Shown here: in pieces, positions 1-26,229 of the stretch
Layout: each line of letters opens with the position of its first letter
How positions within the stretch are numbered: the stretch's first letter is position 1
IMG/VR virus record: IMGVR_UViG_3300017917_000500
Span: 1-26,707 of that record
Direction: 5' to 3' (one strand)
Length of the DNA: 26,707 nucleotides
Source: a virus
Made by a program: the position numbers and the translations under genes
The notes under the pieces: model-generated
Told to the model about the DNA's origin: nothing
Databases searched by the model: none
Seen by the model: the letters and a program-made list of their open reading frames with translations, nothing else

Positions 1-1245
1 ACAGCAACTACACTACAAACCGCTAGAACAATTTCATTGGGTGGCGATTTAAGCGGTTCTGCTTCATTTAACGGGTCATCGGATATTACTATAACTGCTA
101 CTATTGCTGCAAACAGTGTTGCCCTTGGAACTGATACAACAGGCAATTACGTAGCAAGTATTACCAATGGCGCATACATCACCGGGGGTGATGGAGGCAG
201 TGAAGGCGCAGGTCTAACACTAGCTGTCGACGCTACTAGCTTAAACACTGTTTCAAAAATCGTTGCAAGAGACGCAAGTGGTAACTTTGCTGCAGGAACT
301 ATTACCGCTGCACTAAGCGGTAACGCAACAACAGCAAGCGCATGGCAAACTTCTAGAACTATCACGCTAGGCGGAGATTTAAGTGGTAGCGTAAGTATAG
401 ACGGAAGTGCTAACGTAACACTCACTGCAACTATCGCTGCTAACAGTGTTGCCCTTGGAACAGATACAACAGGTAACTACGTAGCAAGTATCACTAATGG
501 CTCGTATATCACTGGCGGCGATGGAGGTAGTGAAGGCGCAGGTCTAACACTATCTGTTGATGCAACTACAACAAATACAGCATCAAAGGTTGTAGCACGT
601 GATGCGAGTGGTAACTTTGCTGCAGGAACTATTACCGCTGCATTGAGTGGTAACGCAACTACAGCAACTACCTTACAAACTACTAGAACATTGTGGGGTC
701 AGAATTTCAACGGCGGTGCTAACGTCACAGGAAATTTAACAAGCGTAGGCGATATAACAGGTTTAAACGCTATCACAATAACAGCAGGCGGCTCGAACCA
801 AAATATCACGTTAACTCCTAGTGGAACAGGTTATACATTACTGAATGGCAACGTTGGTATTAATACAGTAACACCTGCAGAAAAATTACATGTTGAAGGT
901 GCAATTAGAATTGACAGCACTTATAATTTGGATAGTGCAACTGCAACTCTGGCATCAATAACACAAACCGCAATTGCGTCATTCAGTTCTACTACATTTG
1001 GCGGCGGCAAAGTAGTGATACAAGCAAGAGACACTGTTACCGGTGCCAGAAGTATAACCGAAATGTTAATTGTTCATAACGGATCAGTTGCTAGTGCAAC
1101 ACAATATGCTATGGTTAACACAGGTGCAAGTGATTTGGCAGCATATGATGTTGATATTAGTGGAGGCAATGTTAGAATATTAGCAACTCAGGCAAGCACT
1201 AACAGCACACAATATAAGATAGTTCAGACTCTTCTACTTGCATAA
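1..1245 (+). CDS. Tail-fibre-like repeat protein (5' end outside window)
   Basis: The reading frame is open from the first base, so the gene begins upstream; an in-frame TTG at 37 is not a credible start. At least 414 residues are visible. The visible N-terminal part is two copies of a Thr/Ala/Gly/Ser-rich module of about 110 residues (GGDLSGS, then NSVALGTDTTGNYVAS, ARDASGNFAAGTITAAL), followed by a partial third entry. After them comes GINTVTPAEKLHVEG, a motif seen near the distal end of many phage fibres, and a beta-rich C-terminal domain of about 115 residues. The composition and repeats fit a trimeric beta-structured fibre. No collagen or S74 chaperone end is visible. The same modules recur in the 2887-residue fibre downstream. 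The inferred role is host-surface attachment; the receptor is unknown. The stop codon TAA lies inside the late promoter of the next gene. Confidence 0.8.
   Translation, partial: TATTLQTARTISLGGDLSGSASFNGSSDITITATIAANSVALGTDTTGNYVASITNGAYITGGDGGSEGAGLTLAVDATSLNTVSKIVARDASGNFAAGTITAALSGNATTASAWQTSRTITLGGDLSGSVSIDGSANVTLTATIAANSVALGTDTTGNYVASITNGSYITGGDGGSEGAGLTLSVDATTTNTASKVVARDASGNFAAGTITAALSGNATTATTLQTTRTLWGQNFNGGANVTGNLTSVGDITGLNAITITAGGSNQNITLTPSGTGYTLLNGNVGINTVTPAEKLHVEGAIRIDSTYNLDSATATLASITQTAIASFSSTTFGGGKVVIQARDTVTGARSITEMLIVHNGSVASATQYAMVNTGASDLAAYDVDISGGNVRILATQASTNSTQYKIVQTLLLA
37..690 (+). repeat. Tandem 330-bp fibre module, two copies
   Basis: Two consecutive copies of a fibre module begin near 37 and 367. 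A 36-nt stretch is identical at 277-312 and 607-642, exactly 330 bp (110 codons) apart. The remainder differs mainly at third codon positions. A third copy starts near 691 but diverges after a few codons. Confidence 0.85.
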
Positions 1246-1248
1246 ATA
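1241..1248 (+). promoter_or_regulatory. T4-type late promoter (CATAAATA)
   Basis: CATAAATA matches the T4 late promoter box (TATAAATA) at 7 of 8 positions. It contains the TAA stop codon (1243-1245) of the upstream fibre gene. With the T4 geometry (box at -13 to -6) the start of transcription is about 1254, giving a leader of roughly 24 nt that carries the GGGGAG ribosome binding site at 1264-1269 before the GTG at 1278. Confidence 0.7.
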
Positions 1249-13972: not shown

Positions 13973-13980
13973 AATAAATA
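13973..13980 (+). promoter_or_regulatory. T4-type late promoter (AATAAATA)
   Basis: The box lies 7 bp after the stop of the giant fibre gene. With T4 spacing, transcription would start near 13986, giving a leader of about 27 nt for the small gene at 14013, with AGGA at 14001-14004 as ribosome binding site. It could also serve the following genes up to 16342. Confidence 0.7.
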
Positions 13981-14012: not shown

Positions 14013-14174
14013 ATGGCGTTACCCGCAACAGGCACATTTATTAGTATTGACCAAGTGCAAGTCTACTACGGATTTACAAGTGGCTCAGCCCGATGCTTAA
14101 GTGCATTGGGCACCTTTGTGGGTATAACAGTAGGTAGCACAGTATTTTTAAGTGCTAGCTTTGGCGGTCAATAA
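14013..14174 (+). CDS. Small conserved-looking structural module protein, 53 residues
   Basis: ATG at 14013 with AGGA 8 nt upstream gives a 53-residue protein beginning MALPATGTFISIDQVQ and ending FLSASFGGQ. It is directly behind a late promoter, which supports real expression. The N-terminal MALPxTGxISI pattern followed by a second beta segment resembles the MALP-x-SG-x-ISL small modules found alone or at the start of phage fibre and baseplate proteins. The residue composition (Ser, Thr, Gly, Val, Phe) fits a beta-structured virion component. No enzymatic motif is present. The function is not known; a fibre-tip or fibre-assembly cap is a guess from position. Confidence 0.7.
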   Translation: MALPATGTFISIDQVQVYYGFTSGSARCLSALGTFVGITVGSTVFLSASFGGQ

Positions 14175-16786: not shown

Positions 16787-18171
16787 TACAGATATATTCT
16801 CCAGAAACCTGGATTGTATGTTCCTTCGAACGCACTAATCCATTGCGATCCTGTCCATTTTAGTTTATCTAATGTAGTTAAATTAGTTGTATAGTGGGTG
16901 CCAGTGACAGAACTAGCGTCAAACGTTCTGGTCCACACAGTGCCATTATACTGTATAATATCATTTTTATCTGCTGATACAACACCCCATGCACTACCTT
17001 CAGGAACCGAGTTAAGTATCAAATATCGTTGTCCATTGGCAGCAGCCGGCAACGTTCCGTCGCCCGGATAACTGTATTCTGGGTTAATTATTCCGTTAAT
17101 CGGACTTTGTGTGTTTGCGGGTAATGTGTCTACATCTAGCGTAATCACTAACTCATTTACATTAGGATCTGGCATAGTGCATGTTCCGATAATGTCGTCT
17201 GTTGTGTCCATTGGATCAGATGTTTGTTTTAATCTTAGTTGTGTTATACCGTCTCTGAATTCACCGTATGCCTGTAATACGTCATACCAAAGTAACGGAT
17301 CTCCGTTGCTATTTGTATTTCCGCCTAAACTGTTTAGTAATACTGCCGTTGCTACACCCGAGCTATTGACCGTAAATCTCATTTTATAATTTTCAAGTGT
17401 TATAACTTTATAAGAGGTAAATCTAGGAACAATGTCATCGACTGATTCAATTGAAGCAGCAGACCCAGTTGCAACATCATGGATATTTGCAACAATAGTG
17501 TGTATCACTGTGTTTCTTTTGACTTTTGCTGCAGGGTTGATGAATATAGGTATTTCAAATGTAAGGGTTGAAATATCAATGATGTCATCAACACCCTGTG
17601 GAATTGTTCTGTTAGACCACTGAACGTTAGTAAGTTCTACTATACTTAAATTGCTCCAGTCTAGTGCATTATTGTTTGTATGTATGTTTACACTAGGGTT
17701 GAATAAAACTAAAATTTGTTCTAACAACTGCATTTTTGTTTCAGTGTTACTAGTCCATATATCACAGTTCATTGTTAGTTTATAAGGAACAGGTTGGTAT
17801 CGTTGTAAGGTATACGAATCGCCGGCTTCGTTACTATAAGTGCTAGTTTCATTGTCGAACTTTTTTTCGATAACAGGTAATTTGTCCTCGAATTGTGCAT
17901 ATGTGCGTTTAGTAGGATCAATCTGCAAACTCATAACATAGCAACTAATAAACGGAACTGTATTGACCACATTTTCACTGTTTTGTTTTAAAATGTGCGC
18001 TGCTACTCGATTCATGTCGCCATAACGAACAGGAACCGTTTGGTATATTGGATCACCCGTTTCTGTTTGACTAATAACAAATTGAAACCCTGCAAATAAT
18101 CTTATAAATTGCTGAATGTATTTGCGTAGCTGTTTATCGTAGAAATAAGGAACTGCAATTATATTTGACAT
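16786..18171 (-). CDS. 15: Tail sheath stabiliser and completion protein, gp15-like
   Basis: A 461-residue homologue of T4 gp15, the terminator ring at the head-proximal end of the tail. The N-terminal 220 residues follow the T4 protein in order: PYFYDKQLRKY, then an FAGFQ strand, TGDPIYQTVPVRYGD, the PFISCYVMSL segment, RYQPVPYKLTMNCDIWT, and the helix KMQLLEQILVLFNP. T4 gp15 has 272 residues, so this protein has a C-terminal addition of roughly 190, ending in a module with GQRYLILN, DIIQYNGTVW and an FEGTYNPGFWR end. The gene begins in a TAATG overlap with the gp14 stop and passes by the same type of overlap to the Nudix gene. It is expected to be expressed late from the promoter before gp14. 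Confidence 0.85.
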   Translation of the reverse strand: MSNIIAVPYFYDKQLRKYIQQFIRLFAGFQFVISQTETGDPIYQTVPVRYGDMNRVAAHILKQNSENVVNTVPFISCYVMSLQIDPTKRTYAQFEDKLPVIEKKFDNETSTYSNEAGDSYTLQRYQPVPYKLTMNCDIWTSNTETKMQLLEQILVLFNPSVNIHTNNNALDWSNLSIVELTNVQWSNRTIPQGVDDIIDISTLTFEIPIFINPAAKVKRNTVIHTIVANIHDVATGSAASIESVDDIVPRFTSYKVITLENYKMRFTVNSSGVATAVLLNSLGGNTNSNGDPLLWYDVLQAYGEFRDGITQLRLKQTSDPMDTTDDIIGTCTMPDPNVNELVITLDVDTLPANTQSPINGIINPEYSYPGDGTLPAAANGQRYLILNSVPEGSAWGVVSADKNDIIQYNGTVWTRTFDASSVTGTHYTTNLTTLDKLKWTGSQWISAFEGTYNPGFWRIYL

Positions 18172-19262
18172 TATACATCAGCCTTTGGTAAAATTACTTC
18201 GCTTAGTGCTTGCTTTTCGCTTAACTCTTGATCGTTTACAACAGTAACATTGGCCTCGTTATTGATATAAGTGCTAGCGTTATATGTTCTGTCTGACCAT
18301 GTTTTTGTTGCACCGTATTCCGGAACACGGGCCCACTTGTTTCCTCTGCGAACAAACATGCGATCTGGGTTAAAGTCGGTTCTAATAAAATATTGACCTT
18401 CACTCGGATTGATCGGAAATGTTGGGCCGCTATCTACTGTTTCACCGTGAGTGTATGTAGAGTTGTCGTTAACAGTCCCGCCAGATGTTCCACGATCATA
18501 ACCAAACAGGTGATCTAAGTCCATAGTGCCATCTGGATCCATGTCTGATGCTGCACCAATAATTGCATCGCTGATCTTGAATTCTTCTTTGTATGTGCTA
18601 ATGTTATTTTTAAGACTGCCCGTGTCTTGTGCGCTGCCAAGTATATCGTAGTATTCCTGACTGTCGTTGATTGGACTCAATTTAACACGCCATATGTGTG
18701 GATACCATGTTTGGCTAAAGCCTTCGGCACCTTTCGACGCATCATTAACAACATAAAATTTACTGATCGGATCTTTGTTTGCGTCTAACGGAAATTCTTC
18801 ACGTAATGTTGGTAGTTCTAACACATCGCCTGCTAACAGTTTTCTGCCAAGTGTTTCTACCATACTGTTTATATGAAATGTCATATAAAACTGGTCATTG
18901 CTTAAGAACAGACCAAATTGTGTTAAGTCGAAGTCGTTGTCACTTACGTTATACACGCCACGTAGTTCATACACATCTGGATCATACTTGCGGTCTCTGT
19001 TTTCTAGAAACAGCAAGTCCTGTATTTTTGTTTCGTTGATAATGCCTTCTAAGTTTATAAACTCGCCACTTAGCGGGTCCACTTCTCTACCATCAATATA
19101 ATTGGGTTGACTCTTGTCGTTTTTATCTAGTTGGGCTGCAGGTCCGACGTATTTGTGGACAATAACACCAACGCCGCCGATCTGGAACTGTTCGGCAACA
19201 TTGCGATCTAAAAACTTGTAGTCGTTTGTTTTGTATGGTGAGTATGATGTGAGTCTTGGCAT
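18171..19262 (-). CDS. 14: Neck protein, gp14-like
   Basis: A 363-residue homologue of neck protein gp14, which with gp13 closes the head after DNA packaging and joins it to the tail. The start is ATG at 19262 (MPRLTSYSPY); a TTG ten codons earlier would lie upstream of the late promoter box and is rejected. Family features are VGVIVHKYVGPAA near residue 35, IQDLLFLENRDRKYD and YELRGVYNV near 80-105, and the block LTQFGLFLSNDQF ... GDVLELPTLREE (about 115-155), parallel to T4 gp14's FGMQVQDEVTLSINP ... GDLIYFPMD. It is longer than the T4 protein (256), with a C-terminal extension containing GQYFIRTD and VRRGNKWARV, similar in kind to that of gp15. There is no Shine-Dalgarno sequence. Confidence 0.8.
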   Translation of the reverse strand: MPRLTSYSPYKTNDYKFLDRNVAEQFQIGGVGVIVHKYVGPAAQLDKNDKSQPNYIDGREVDPLSGEFINLEGIINETKIQDLLFLENRDRKYDPDVYELRGVYNVSDNDFDLTQFGLFLSNDQFYMTFHINSMVETLGRKLLAGDVLELPTLREEFPLDANKDPISKFYVVNDASKGAEGFSQTWYPHIWRVKLSPINDSQEYYDILGSAQDTGSLKNNISTYKEEFKISDAIIGAASDMDPDGTMDLDHLFGYDRGTSGGTVNDNSTYTHGETVDSGPTFPINPSEGQYFIRTDFNPDRMFVRRGNKWARVPEYGATKTWSDRTYNASTYINNEANVTVVNDQELSEKQALSEVILPKADV

Positions 19263-19270
19263 GATGTATA

Positions 19271-19278
19271 TATTTATC
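19271..19278 (-). promoter_or_regulatory. T4-type late promoter (GATAAATA) for gp14-gp15-Nudix
   Basis: Read on the minus strand, GATAAATA ends 8 nt before the gp14 ATG. With T4 spacing the predicted start is about 19265, leaving a leader of only 3 nt, and no ribosome binding site is visible. The box lies back-to-back with the sigma70-type promoter of the plus-strand genes. Confidence 0.7.
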
Positions 19279-19328: not shown

Positions 19329-19363
19329 GTGTGAGTAAGGACGCTAACAAAGGATTGTCTGAT

Positions 19364-19678
19364 ATGAAACTGAAAACCAAACTTCACCGTGTCGCTGCCA
19401 CGCTTGCACTGATTCTCATGTATAGTGGTGTAAGTGCCGAAACTGTATACTATCCTAAGGATAAGTGTGCAGAAATCCTGTCAGTCGAAGTGTCTACTGG
19501 CAACGGCGATAGTTCTATCAATCAAGTTGACGTCCTGTGTAAGGATGTTAGCGGAAATTATACTGTATACGTTGGTTCTTGGACTAACGTAGCAGGTTTG
19601 TTTGGTCTCGGTCGCATGTCTACTCCTGAAGTAATGACGTTTGTCCCTTATGATGGCGATACGGTTACAGTCGAATGA
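19364..19678 (+). CDS. Small exported protein with signal peptide
   Basis: ATG at 19364 is selected because it lies downstream of the predicted transcription start and has AAAGGA before it. The 104-residue product has a classical signal peptide: basic start (MKLKTKLHR), hydrophobic core (VAATLALILMY) and a cleavage site after VSA at residue 25. The mature part of about 79 residues has two cysteines (35 and 59), suitable for one disulfide in the periplasm, and a TVYVGSWTNV strand. It resembles no family I can name. It heads an early-type operon, overlapping the next gene by ATGA. A phage-encoded periplasmic protein expressed early could alter the envelope, for example superinfection exclusion or lysis control; this is inference. 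Confidence 0.8.
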   Translation: MKLKTKLHRVAATLALILMYSGVSAETVYYPKDKCAEILSVEVSTGNGDSSINQVDVLCKDVSGNYTVYVGSWTNVAGLFGLGRMSTPEVMTFVPYDGDTVTVE

Positions 19679-22701: not shown

Positions 22702-22926
22702 ATGCGTGAAGCGATCATCACTAAAGAGTGGGGCGAAGTTGGGTTTGGTAGCAGCAAGCGTGACGGTTGGGCTTGGGAGGTTGCGTTCTTTGTAGAAGGC
22801 AACGAAGATCCGATCGACCGTCACTACTACAAGACAGAAGAATTTGCCGAGAACGCAGCAAGTCTGTTCGAACGTGGTCTTTATTACACCGGCGAGTATG
22901 GCGGTGTAGAATTTGAGGAATGCTAA
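22702..22926 (+). CDS. Small hypothetical protein, 74 residues
   Basis: Start at 22702 is preferred over the in-frame ATG at 22687, because GAGGG then serves as ribosome site and the position matches the gene after promoter copy 1. The product begins MREAIITKEWGEVGFGSS and contains DGWAWEVAFFVEG and TGEYGGVEFEEC. It is acidic with a beta-rich look and a C-terminal cysteine. There is no recognised family. It ends in a TAATG overlap with the next gene, which suggests joint expression. Confidence 0.75.
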   Translation: MREAIITKEWGEVGFGSSKRDGWAWEVAFFVEGNEDPIDRHYYKTEEFAENAASLFERGLYYTGEYGGVEFEEC

Positions 22927-24086
22927 TGGCTAAAGCAGTTACTAAATCACTTACTCCCCGTAAGAAAAAAACAGTTCGGGCAACACGGCGTGTCACTGGT
23001 ATGGCAGCAATGCCTACTGGTGATTTTCAAAAAGCAAAATTCTATGTTCATTATGAAGTAGAAAGTCGTGAGTGGGGTGCGGCTGTTAAGGCTTATGTCA
23101 AAAAGTTTATGACTAAGCAAGAGCAGGCTGCAATTAACAAGCTGCCCGAAAGCAAACTCAGCTACGGTAGTCATTGGGCCACTACAGCGCAGATGTATAT
23201 TATCGATCAACCTGTGCCAGAGTCGTATGCTAAAGGTTTTAAGAAGTATCTTGCACAACTGGTAGAAGAAGGTAAAAATATACTACAAAGCGAAAAGCCT
23301 ACTTCCAAAAAAGAAGTATATGTTCCTACTATTCAGGAACGGCTGCAAGAAGCTACAGAGGAAAAACTCGAAGAGCTTGAACAGTGGCTCGACGATTTCC
23401 TGCGGGACCCTAAAGCTAACCCGCTTAAAGATAAACATCCTCTGACTTACTTTAAGTCTAAAGAAATCAACTTGGGTCATGCTCGTTTTATCAACGACTG
23501 GTATAAAGGCTCATTCGAGGAAATGGAAGAACTTGTAAACCTTCCCACTCCTGCAAAACAAACAGAAATGCAAAAGCAACTCGCAGAGGGCTATAACCAC
23601 CTTACTAAACTTCAGCAAAAAGAACTGCATGAGTTTTACAAGCGGGTAATGCAAGCGGTAGAGATTCTACGTGCCGAGAAGAAACAAGTCAAAGCGCCAC
23701 GTAAAGTAAAACAAAAAAGCGCAGCAGAGCTTGTCAAAAAGCTAAAGTTTAAAGCAAGCGAACCGCAATACGGTATTGCAAGTGTAAACCCTGCAGACTT
23801 GATCGGTGCAACTGTTGCAGTAGTCTTTAACACCAAGAATCGTAAACTGGGTGTATATTATGCAGAACCGAACTGCACCTTCCAGGTAAGTGGGACTTCG
23901 TTGAAGTTCTTCGATGAAACAAAAAGTGTGCAAAAGACAATTCGTAAGCCAGAAGAAGTCCTGCCTCACTGGAAAAAAGTAACCAAGCACAAAGTAGATG
24001 CTCAGTTTGGTTACCTAAAGACAACTGATACGAAAATGAACGGACGCTTTAACGAAGACATTGTGATTCTCAAAGTATTTCAATAA
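22926..24086 (+). CDS. Conserved-type phage protein with basic N-terminus and C-terminal beta domain
   Basis: A 386-residue protein; the start at 22926 is chosen because GAGGA is 6 nt upstream. Three parts are visible. The N-terminus is very basic (AKAVTKSLTPRKKKTVRATR). The middle (about 35-270) is Lys/Glu-rich and helical with likely coiled coils (EEKLEELEQWLDDFL; NHLTKLQQKELHEFYKR). The C-terminal 100 residues contain VVFNTKNRKLGVYYA, a segment of alternating strands, and SVQKTIRKPEEVL, a domain I recall from hypothetical proteins of marine T4-like phages. The basic tail suggests nucleic-acid contact. It is the last gene driven by the sigma70-type promoters here; its TAA stop lies inside the following late promoter. 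Function unknown. Confidence 0.75.
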   Translation: MAKAVTKSLTPRKKKTVRATRRVTGMAAMPTGDFQKAKFYVHYEVESREWGAAVKAYVKKFMTKQEQAAINKLPESKLSYGSHWATTAQMYIIDQPVPESYAKGFKKYLAQLVEEGKNILQSEKPTSKKEVYVPTIQERLQEATEEKLEELEQWLDDFLRDPKANPLKDKHPLTYFKSKEINLGHARFINDWYKGSFEEMEELVNLPTPAKQTEMQKQLAEGYNHLTKLQQKELHEFYKRVMQAVEILRAEKKQVKAPRKVKQKSAAELVKKLKFKASEPQYGIASVNPADLIGATVAVVFNTKNRKLGVYYAEPNCTFQVSGTSLKFFDETKSVQKTIRKPEEVLPHWKKVTKHKVDAQFGYLKTTDTKMNGRFNEDIVILKVFQ

Positions 24087-24089
24087 ATA
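24082..24089 (+). promoter_or_regulatory. T4-type late promoter with predicted +1 at the ATG
   Basis: AATAAATA includes the TAA stop (24084-24086) of the upstream gene and ends 5 nt before the ATG at 24095. With T4 spacing (-13 to -6) the transcript starts on the A of that ATG. No Shine-Dalgarno sequence is present. Confidence 0.7.
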
Positions 24090-24094
24090 CATGT

Positions 24095-24790
24095 ATGAGA
24101 TTACATGAACTGATAGAAGCTAGATTAGATCCGGACGATGATTTCCTTTCTCAAGTAGAGGAGATCATCGACGATTCTATTGCAGAGTATCAAGAATTTT
24201 TAGAAGATAACAACGACGAAGACGATATTAATGAGTTAGAAGAAATTCTTAACTCGAATAATGTTGACGAACTTCCTATAGAATTTATAGCAGACTATAG
24301 TCCACGTAAAGACCCTAACGAATGGGTCAGTGCCGCTGCTGATTGGGATCCAAAAGAAGGCAAAAGTATACGTGTCTTCCTTCATGCAAAGAATTTAGAA
24401 AAAGTATACGGTCCACAAACATTCAAAAAAATAATGATGAGGATGTTAGCACATGAAACTGTGCATTGGAATCAATACGACAAAATAGATCCTAAAGTGT
24501 TAGCTGGTCACAAGAGCGGCTACATGAAAGGTGTAGAAAAAAAAGCAGCAGGCGGCACCGATAGAGACTTGATGCGTAGTTACTTGCGTGACCCGCATGA
24601 GTTAATGGCTTATGGTCGTGATATAGCTGACGAAATGAAAGATACAGACAATCCAGAAGCTGCACTACGCAATCCTGAAAAGTATCGTGATGAATTGCCA
24701 TCCTATGACAGGTTTAGGCAGATATTTCCTGCAGATTCTAAGCAAATTAAACAACTGCTCAAATACGTTGCAGATTATTTTAGGGTATAA
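24095..24790 (+). CDS. HExxH zinc metallopeptidase-like protein
   Basis: A 231-residue protein. LAHETVHWNQYD contains HExxH (His120, Glu121, His124), the zinc and catalytic motif of zincin peptidases; RDPHELMAYG offers Glu169, 45 residues on, as a likely third ligand of the gluzincin type. Residues 1-60 are very acidic (many Asp/Glu, EDNNDEDDINELEE) and may be a regulatory or propeptide-like arm. The MRLHELIEA start recurs, from memory, in unrelated marine phage proteins. No signal peptide is seen, so it would act in the cytoplasm or in the virion. It stands directly before neck gene gp13 behind a late promoter, which suggests a part in assembly or maturation rather than takeover. It is not the T4 prohead protease gp21, which is a serine enzyme. 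Confidence 0.75.
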   Translation: MRLHELIEARLDPDDDFLSQVEEIIDDSIAEYQEFLEDNNDEDDINELEEILNSNNVDELPIEFIADYSPRKDPNEWVSAAADWDPKEGKSIRVFLHAKNLEKVYGPQTFKKIMMRMLAHETVHWNQYDKIDPKVLAGHKSGYMKGVEKKAAGGTDRDLMRSYLRDPHELMAYGRDIADEMKDTDNPEAALRNPEKYRDELPSYDRFRQIFPADSKQIKQLLKYVADYFRV

Positions 24791-24793
24791 ATA
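24786..24793 (+). promoter_or_regulatory. Consensus T4-type late promoter with predicted +1 at the gp13 ATG
   Basis: TATAAATA is a full match to the T4 late consensus. It contains the TAA stop (24788-24790) of the metallopeptidase gene and ends 5 nt before the gp13 ATG at 24799, so the predicted +1 is the A of the start codon. No ribosome binding site is seen. Confidence 0.8.
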
Positions 24794-24798
24794 TTAGC

Positions 24799-25542
24799 AT
24801 GGCAAACAAAAAACAACTTCTCATTAAAGAAATAGAACTTCGTTTAGGCGGGCAAATGGTCGATGTTGAACTAGACCCCGAACATTACGATTTGTCTATA
24901 CAAAAAGCAGTAGAAAAATATCGCCAACGGGCAGAAAACTCAGTGGAAGAAGGATTTATACCTTTGGACATTGTAGAAGATCAAGTTGAATACACACTGC
25001 CCGACGAGGTTATTGATGTAAAAGACATATACCGTAGAACAAGTGGCACACTTAACAGTAGCAGCGGCGGCGACATTGAGCCCTTTGAGACTGCATACTT
25101 GAATAACTTCTTGTTATATCAAGGACGCCCGGGTGGTATGGCTACATATGACTTTCTTGCACAAAATAGAGAAACATTAGGTCGTTTGTTTGGCGAAAAG
25201 TTTATGTTTTCATGGAACAATGTGTCGAAGAAACTTCTATTACATCGTCGAGTGAAGGCAAGCGATACTGTATACTTGCATGTTTTTAAATATAGAACAG
25301 ACGAAGAGTTGCTTATGGACGTTTATAGTGCGCCATGGATCAAAGAACTCTCACTAGCATATGCAAAACTAATGTTAGCAGAAGCGAGAGGTAAGTTTAA
25401 CACTATTGCCGGTCCACAAGGCGGCACAGGTATGAACGCAGATGCGTTAAGATCAGACGCACAAGCATCAATTGACAAATTAGATGATGAACTGAAGACT
25501 TATATCGACGGTAGTGTAGGACTTGGTATTATCATCGGTTGA
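24799..25542 (+). CDS. 13: Neck protein, gp13-like
   Basis: A 247-residue homologue of T4 neck protein gp13 (309 residues), which with gp14 seals the portal vertex after packaging. Features typical of marine T4-like members appear in order: MVDVELDPEHYDLSI and VEKYRQRAENSVEE (about 20-50), YTLPDEVIDVKDIYRR (about 70-85), an EPFETAYLNNFLLYQ segment, LGRLFGEKFMFSWN, and PWIKELSLAYAKLMLAEARG followed by FNTIAGPQGGTGMNA near 200-213, the last being the most characteristic. It starts right behind a consensus late promoter without a leader. The T4 neighbour gp14 is 5.5 kb away on the other strand here. Confidence 0.85.
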   Translation: MANKKQLLIKEIELRLGGQMVDVELDPEHYDLSIQKAVEKYRQRAENSVEEGFIPLDIVEDQVEYTLPDEVIDVKDIYRRTSGTLNSSSGGDIEPFETAYLNNFLLYQGRPGGMATYDFLAQNRETLGRLFGEKFMFSWNNVSKKLLLHRRVKASDTVYLHVFKYRTDEELLMDVYSAPWIKELSLAYAKLMLAEARGKFNTIAGPQGGTGMNADALRSDAQASIDKLDDELKTYIDGSVGLGIIIG

Positions 25543-26221: not shown

Positions 26222-26229
26222 AATAAATA
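26222..26229 (+). promoter_or_regulatory. T4-type late promoter (AATAAATA) for gp18
   Basis: AATAAATA with predicted start near 26235 gives a 30-nt leader with a GAGGAG ribosome site (26250-26255) before the ATG at 26265. In contrast to gp13 and gp14, this late gene has a normal leader. Confidence 0.75.

Follow-up and report, generated by a model that had tools for sequence, protein, structure and literature searches.

The T4-type late promoters of two neighbouring genes, one encoding a putative zinc metallopeptidase and the other a gp13-like neck protein, very probably place the first transcribed base (+1) on the A of the start codon, and the late mRNAs of both genes would accordingly carry no leader. 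The window, by which we mean the whole stretch of 26,707 nucleotides under analysis, is a 26.7-kb record, classed as viral in IMG/VR, of a T4-related phage; a DNA-level search of annotated phages gave no match. A previous inspection of the letters alone (hereafter, the sequence-only reading) had proposed leaderless expression of these two genes, and its proposal is supported by a fixed spacing between promoter box and ATG, a two-moded distribution of such spacings, and a contrast in the use of Shine-Dalgarno sequences.

The features concerned are collected in Table 1. At both sites the order is stop codon, box, 5 nt and ATG, at exactly the positions that the sequence-only reading had given, with spacers CATGT (24090-24094) and TTAGC (24794-24798). 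The three late genes which it had chosen for comparison likewise have the leaders and Shine-Dalgarno sequences that it described. One of these three is a small ORF of 53 aa (14013-14174), which has a leadered late promoter and a Shine-Dalgarno sequence of its own.

Table 1. Late promoters and late genes of the window; all +1 positions and leaders are predicted.
Feature	Position	Strand	Remarks
Leadered late promoter CATAAATA	1241-1248	+	29 nt before GTG 1278; Shine-Dalgarno GGGGAG, 24-nt leader
Leadered late promoter AATAAATA	13973-13980	+	32 nt before ATG 14013; AGGA, 27-nt leader
Virion structural protein, candidate near-leaderless late gene	18171-19262	-	PHROG 11591, E=1.6e-80
Late promoter box GATAAATA	19271-19278	-	8 nt before ATG 19262; predicted +1 at A19265, 3-nt leader AUC
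Late promoter box AATAAATA of peptidase gene	24082-24089	+	5 nt before ATG 24095; holds TAA stop 24084-24086 of ORF 22920-24086
Putative zinc metallopeptidase, 231 aa, HETVH motif	24095-24790	+	Predicted leaderless; predicted +1 at A24095
Late promoter box TATAAATA of gp13	24786-24793	+	5 nt before ATG 24799; holds TAA stop 24788-24790 of peptidase ORF
T4 gp13-like neck protein (head-tail adaptor Ad2)	24799-25542	+	PHROG 211, E=1.4e-34; predicted leaderless, predicted +1 at A24799
Leadered late promoter AATAAATA	26222-26229	+	35 nt before ATG 26265 (tail sheath); GAGGAG, 30-nt leader

Octamers with at most one mismatch to TATAAATA are not enriched in the window (59, versus 55.7 expected from shuffled sequence). 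The signal is therefore the spacing, and relatives are needed to judge it. The same lack of enrichment speaks for chance or shared ancestry, under which the two sites would be AT-rich coincidences inherited within one narrow lineage. Since contigs are not fully independent and kinship inflates raw counts, we count distinct upstream sequences and gene families; the assignment of boxes to ORFs is mechanical, and the distinct-sequence counts take the start codon as their reference point and do not assume a box in advance.

Across the clade, the distances from the box to the first ATG fall into two modes: 5 nt (with a minor class at 8 nt), and then 16-35 nt with a Shine-Dalgarno sequence. No distance of 9-15 nt occurs among the clade relatives. 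Counted by family, 11.4 of 47 late-gene families lie at exactly 5 nt, 3.1 at 8 nt and none at 9-15 nt, and nearly all of the rest lie at 16-35 nt. The excess in the 5-nt bin has a binomial P of ~4e-9 (one of 46 bins, family-weighted). On these counts, roughly one in four late-gene families with a consensus late promoter has the 5-nt spacing. Coincidence or common descent is scarcely credible as the source of such a peak: it involves at least 11 gene families in the clade and others in the 342-kb genome of a peptidase relative (G008) and in the pelagiphage HTVC008M, the box is invariant beside a variable spacer, and permuted control boxes produce no peak at 5 nt.

The register of initiation can be assessed from the leadered promoters, in which no ATG dictates the letters at the relevant positions. 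A pyrimidine followed by A is the usual initiator. Among 71 leadered promoters, A occupies the sixth position after the box (box+6) in 85%, and a pyrimidine (T/C) the fifth (box+5) in 81%; the signature is weaker in single contigs, with A at box+6 in 56-58% for two clade contigs (G001 and G002) and in 59% for T4. In the 5-nt genes, box+6 coincides with the A of the ATG; in the 8-nt genes it is where a 3-nt leader (AUA, AGA or AUC) would begin. The placement of +1 on the A of the ATG, as the sequence-only reading had it, is thus the register favoured by the leadered promoters. If initiation occurs at box+6, distances of 9-15 nt would correspond to leaders of 4-10 nt, which we infer to be too short for a Shine-Dalgarno sequence and too long for leaderless initiation; such leaders would fit neither format, and this would explain the gap.

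A Shine-Dalgarno core of at least four bases precedes 4 of 106 five-nt genes and 1 of 27 eight-nt genes, versus 141 of 176 leadered genes (Fisher P 1.6e-40). Its absence in the 5-nt class is partly forced, because the box itself fills positions -13 to -6; the contrast with the leadered genes shows, nonetheless, that elsewhere this group of phages relies on Shine-Dalgarno sequences for initiation. Genes at 5 nt start with ATG in 101 cases, and with GTG or TTG in none. The sharp peak at 5 nt and the minor one at 8 nt, combined with absent Shine-Dalgarno sequences, are the outcome for which the sequence-only reading had asked in its own support, here obtained at the level of sequence.

A box whose spacing to the ATG is constant, and which is accompanied by no Shine-Dalgarno sequence, might instead be an AU-rich element of translation initiation in these genes (an S1 or standby site, for example) and not a promoter. 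We consider this very improbable. The identical octamer is also found 16-35 nt before genes that do bear a Shine-Dalgarno sequence, there with an initiator-like pyrimidine-A at box+5/+6, and the box agrees with the T4-type late promoter consensus (PMC2988020, PMC5259590).

The fixed spacing is most extensively documented for gp13, whose nearest annotated relatives are in jumbo phages such as PA5oct (43% identity). A search recovered 80 related contigs, 79 of them with upstream DNA, and in every one of the 79 exactly 5 nt separate the end of the box NATAAATA from the ATG. The upstream gene varies among these contigs, being the peptidase in some and the preceding ORF in others. In terms of distinct upstream sequences, NATAAATA stands at 5 nt in 32 of 33, and in the lone exception a variant box preserves the register; the variants among the exceptions for gp13 and for the structural gene discussed below are GGTAAATA and GCTAAATA. 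GC at the first two positions of the box is a variant reported for Aeh1 (PMC2988020).

For the peptidase gene, the box lies 5 nt before the ATG in 16 of 16 distinct upstream sequences of relatives, which form a family of HExxH proteins with 42-97% identity to the peptidase of the window. The start codon is fixed by conservation, because M1, E5 and E8 are invariant in 13 aligned sequences, in which HExxH is conserved as well. Comparison with Pfam, PHROG and PDB folds gave no significant match, so that HExxH is the sole basis of the label 'metallopeptidase', and tblastn with the peptidase gave no match either. Its N-terminus (24095-24121) reads MRLHELIEA, a beginning that we take to be similar to the capsid-targeting sequences of T4. 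With a pattern chosen post hoc, and in the window together with the G001, G002, G008 and G009 contigs, a similar N-terminal motif is found in 9 of 34 short-leader genes, 5 of 107 leadered late genes and 31 of 854 ORFs overall. The peptidase may be a protein packaged in the head; residues 1-8 have low confidence in the structure model.

A third case in the window, missed by the sequence-only reading, lies on the minus strand (box 19271-19278), upstream of the gene for a virion structural protein. Orthologues of this gene have the box at 5 nt in 25 of 36 distinct upstream sequences and at 8 nt in 4 of 36, and in a further six a GCTAAATA box preserves the register. In one relative (L100) a Shine-Dalgarno leader takes the place of the abutting box. 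At 31 sites there is no second box within 250 nt upstream. The mechanical ORF call starts the gene at TTG 19292; conservation and the box put its start at ATG 19262. A further family, the QQGIY gene, which on its sequence is taken for a putative tail tube gene, has the box at 8 nt in 20 of 21 distinct upstream sequences. Tail sheath orthologues, like the tail sheath gene of the window, are leadered, at 26-35 nt wherever a box is found. Three cases at 6 nt, all from one gene family (MKEEAMKSLKQY), we set aside as ambiguous, since an in-frame ATG follows at roughly the distance seen in leadered orthologues.

The sequence-only reading had offered, as its other option, that these genes are translated by read-through from upstream mRNA. 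The boxes would then be weak or only partly used, and ribosomes on long upstream transcripts would terminate at the overlapping stop codon and reinitiate. Consistent with such coupling, in the window and in many relatives the upstream gene stops 8-13 nt before the ATG, inside the box or immediately ahead of it. However, at 39 of the 106 five-nt sites no ORF on the same strand ends within 60 nt, and the same arrangement occurs behind divergent neighbours: the minus-strand structural gene is preceded by an ORF on the other strand (19331-19678), and gp13 of HTVC008M (start at 59714, box 8 nt upstream) by a divergent gene at 59091-59681. Moreover, the position of the stop is variable where the spacing from box to ATG is constant. 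Coupled read-through is thus disfavoured, and we regard it as improbable. The same variability counts against the suggestion that the stop codon had been packed in by design: we tried the TAA inside the box as part of the device and rejected it, since among relatives the upstream stop is found at many positions. That the stop falls within the box is a matter of compaction, and this overlap is not conserved.

Under the leaderless interpretation, host RNA polymerase with a gp55-like sigma factor would read NATAAATA, the first transcribed base would be the A of the start codon, and the genes for the peptidase and gp13 would yield late mRNAs without a leader. Ribosomes would then begin at the 5'-terminal AUG without a Shine-Dalgarno sequence. 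There would be two formats of late mRNA, serving different sets of genes: one with no leader (or 3 nt), and one with a leader of ~11-30 nt and a Shine-Dalgarno sequence. The RNA 5' ends and the translation of leaderless messages are what we infer from the arrangement of the DNA. By analogy with the phage phiYS40, for which such a change is reported, the two formats might constitute a regulatory programme, in which a late change in the translation machinery favours leaderless late mRNAs. The timing or dosage of late genes would then be controlled at a second level, that of translation, perhaps in particular for tagged proteins inside the head; we think this rather unlikely.

In the group of the window the NATAAATA box precedes virion genes, as T4-type late promoters do. 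A gp55-like sigma gene is present in the 342-kb relative (E=2.3e-81) and also in PA5oct; none was detected in G001 and G002 (133 and 89 kb), both of which are fragments and may lack genes. The T4-type clamp gp45 (PHROG 223) was found in T4 and HTVC008M and not in G008, G001, G002 or PA5oct, where a divergent clamp is possible in its place.

Counted genome by genome among ORF-associated boxes, the 5-nt spacing accounts for 8/32 in the 133-kb clade contig, 6/27 in the 89-kb clade contig, 11/64 in the 342-kb genome, 9/24 in HTVC008M and 2/43 in PA5oct, with 0/32 in T4 and 0/20 in Syn9. We accordingly reject the idea that the trait is common to all T4-type phages. Purine-rich, Shine-Dalgarno-like leaders precede gp13 in PA5oct, Vibrio phage 2.275, Atu_ph07 and Phosso, and these cultured relatives with a leadered gp13 likewise indicate that the trait is not universal. 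Judged by its distribution, the trait seems to come and go, yet to be fixed for gp13 in the group of the window.

Both leaderless mRNAs and late promoters of the T4 type have been described before. In the literature searched, from which subscription papers were mostly absent, no account was found of the two being systematically combined, with a T4-type late promoter joined directly to the start codon. In a large and widespread group of uncultured aquatic T4-like phages this fusion is conserved at one gene after another, and it occurs in a cultured SAR11 phage. It affects the annotation of both start codons and promoters: such genes may escape promoter searches confined to intergenic regions, as well as gene callers built to expect a Shine-Dalgarno sequence. 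In a survey of pelagimyophages, prediction of late promoters by a method developed for cyanophages failed (PMC7029224), and our guess is that the fusion of box and start codon may be one reason.

Among known systems, the late promoter of T4 (gp55/gp33/gp45) consists of a TATA-like box of eight bases, roughly one turn of the helix ahead of the transcription start, with an AT-rich downstream segment and no -35 element (PMC2988020). T4 resembles the group of the window in carrying a TATA-like octamer before its virion genes, but in every ORF-associated case its box stands at least 12 nt before the ATG, usually with a Shine-Dalgarno sequence, and there are no cases at 5 or 8 nt. The RaK2-group jumbo phages CBB and GAP32 have the same motif, reported as an ATAAATA late motif upstream of structural genes together with a gp55-like sigma factor in passages of PMC5259590 that make no mention of a leaderless arrangement; the four phages related to CBB/GAP32 in which the start of gp13 is clear are those named above for their Shine-Dalgarno-like leaders. 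The Thermus phage phiYS40 is alike in having late mRNAs without a leader: most of its middle and late mRNAs are leaderless, and a review reports a shift in IF2/IF3 that favours leaderless translation (PMC3594737). The likeness is one of mRNA format; a T4-type late box is not mentioned in that review.

A cultured parallel to the arrangement is HTVC008M (NC_020484), which has nine boxes at 5 nt (6267, 7549, 16020, 18929, 19443, 31119, 49747, 75546 and 142347), some of which belong to genes for the tape measure, the DNA end protector and the baseplate. Two further boxes lie at 8 nt, one of them upstream of gp13. HTVC008M differs in being annotated in another group (Kyanoviridae), and in that most of its relatives have a leader at gp13, with the box at 18-20 nt and in a few cases at 8 or 5. 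It offers a cultured system in which the prediction of leaderless late mRNAs can be tested at once.
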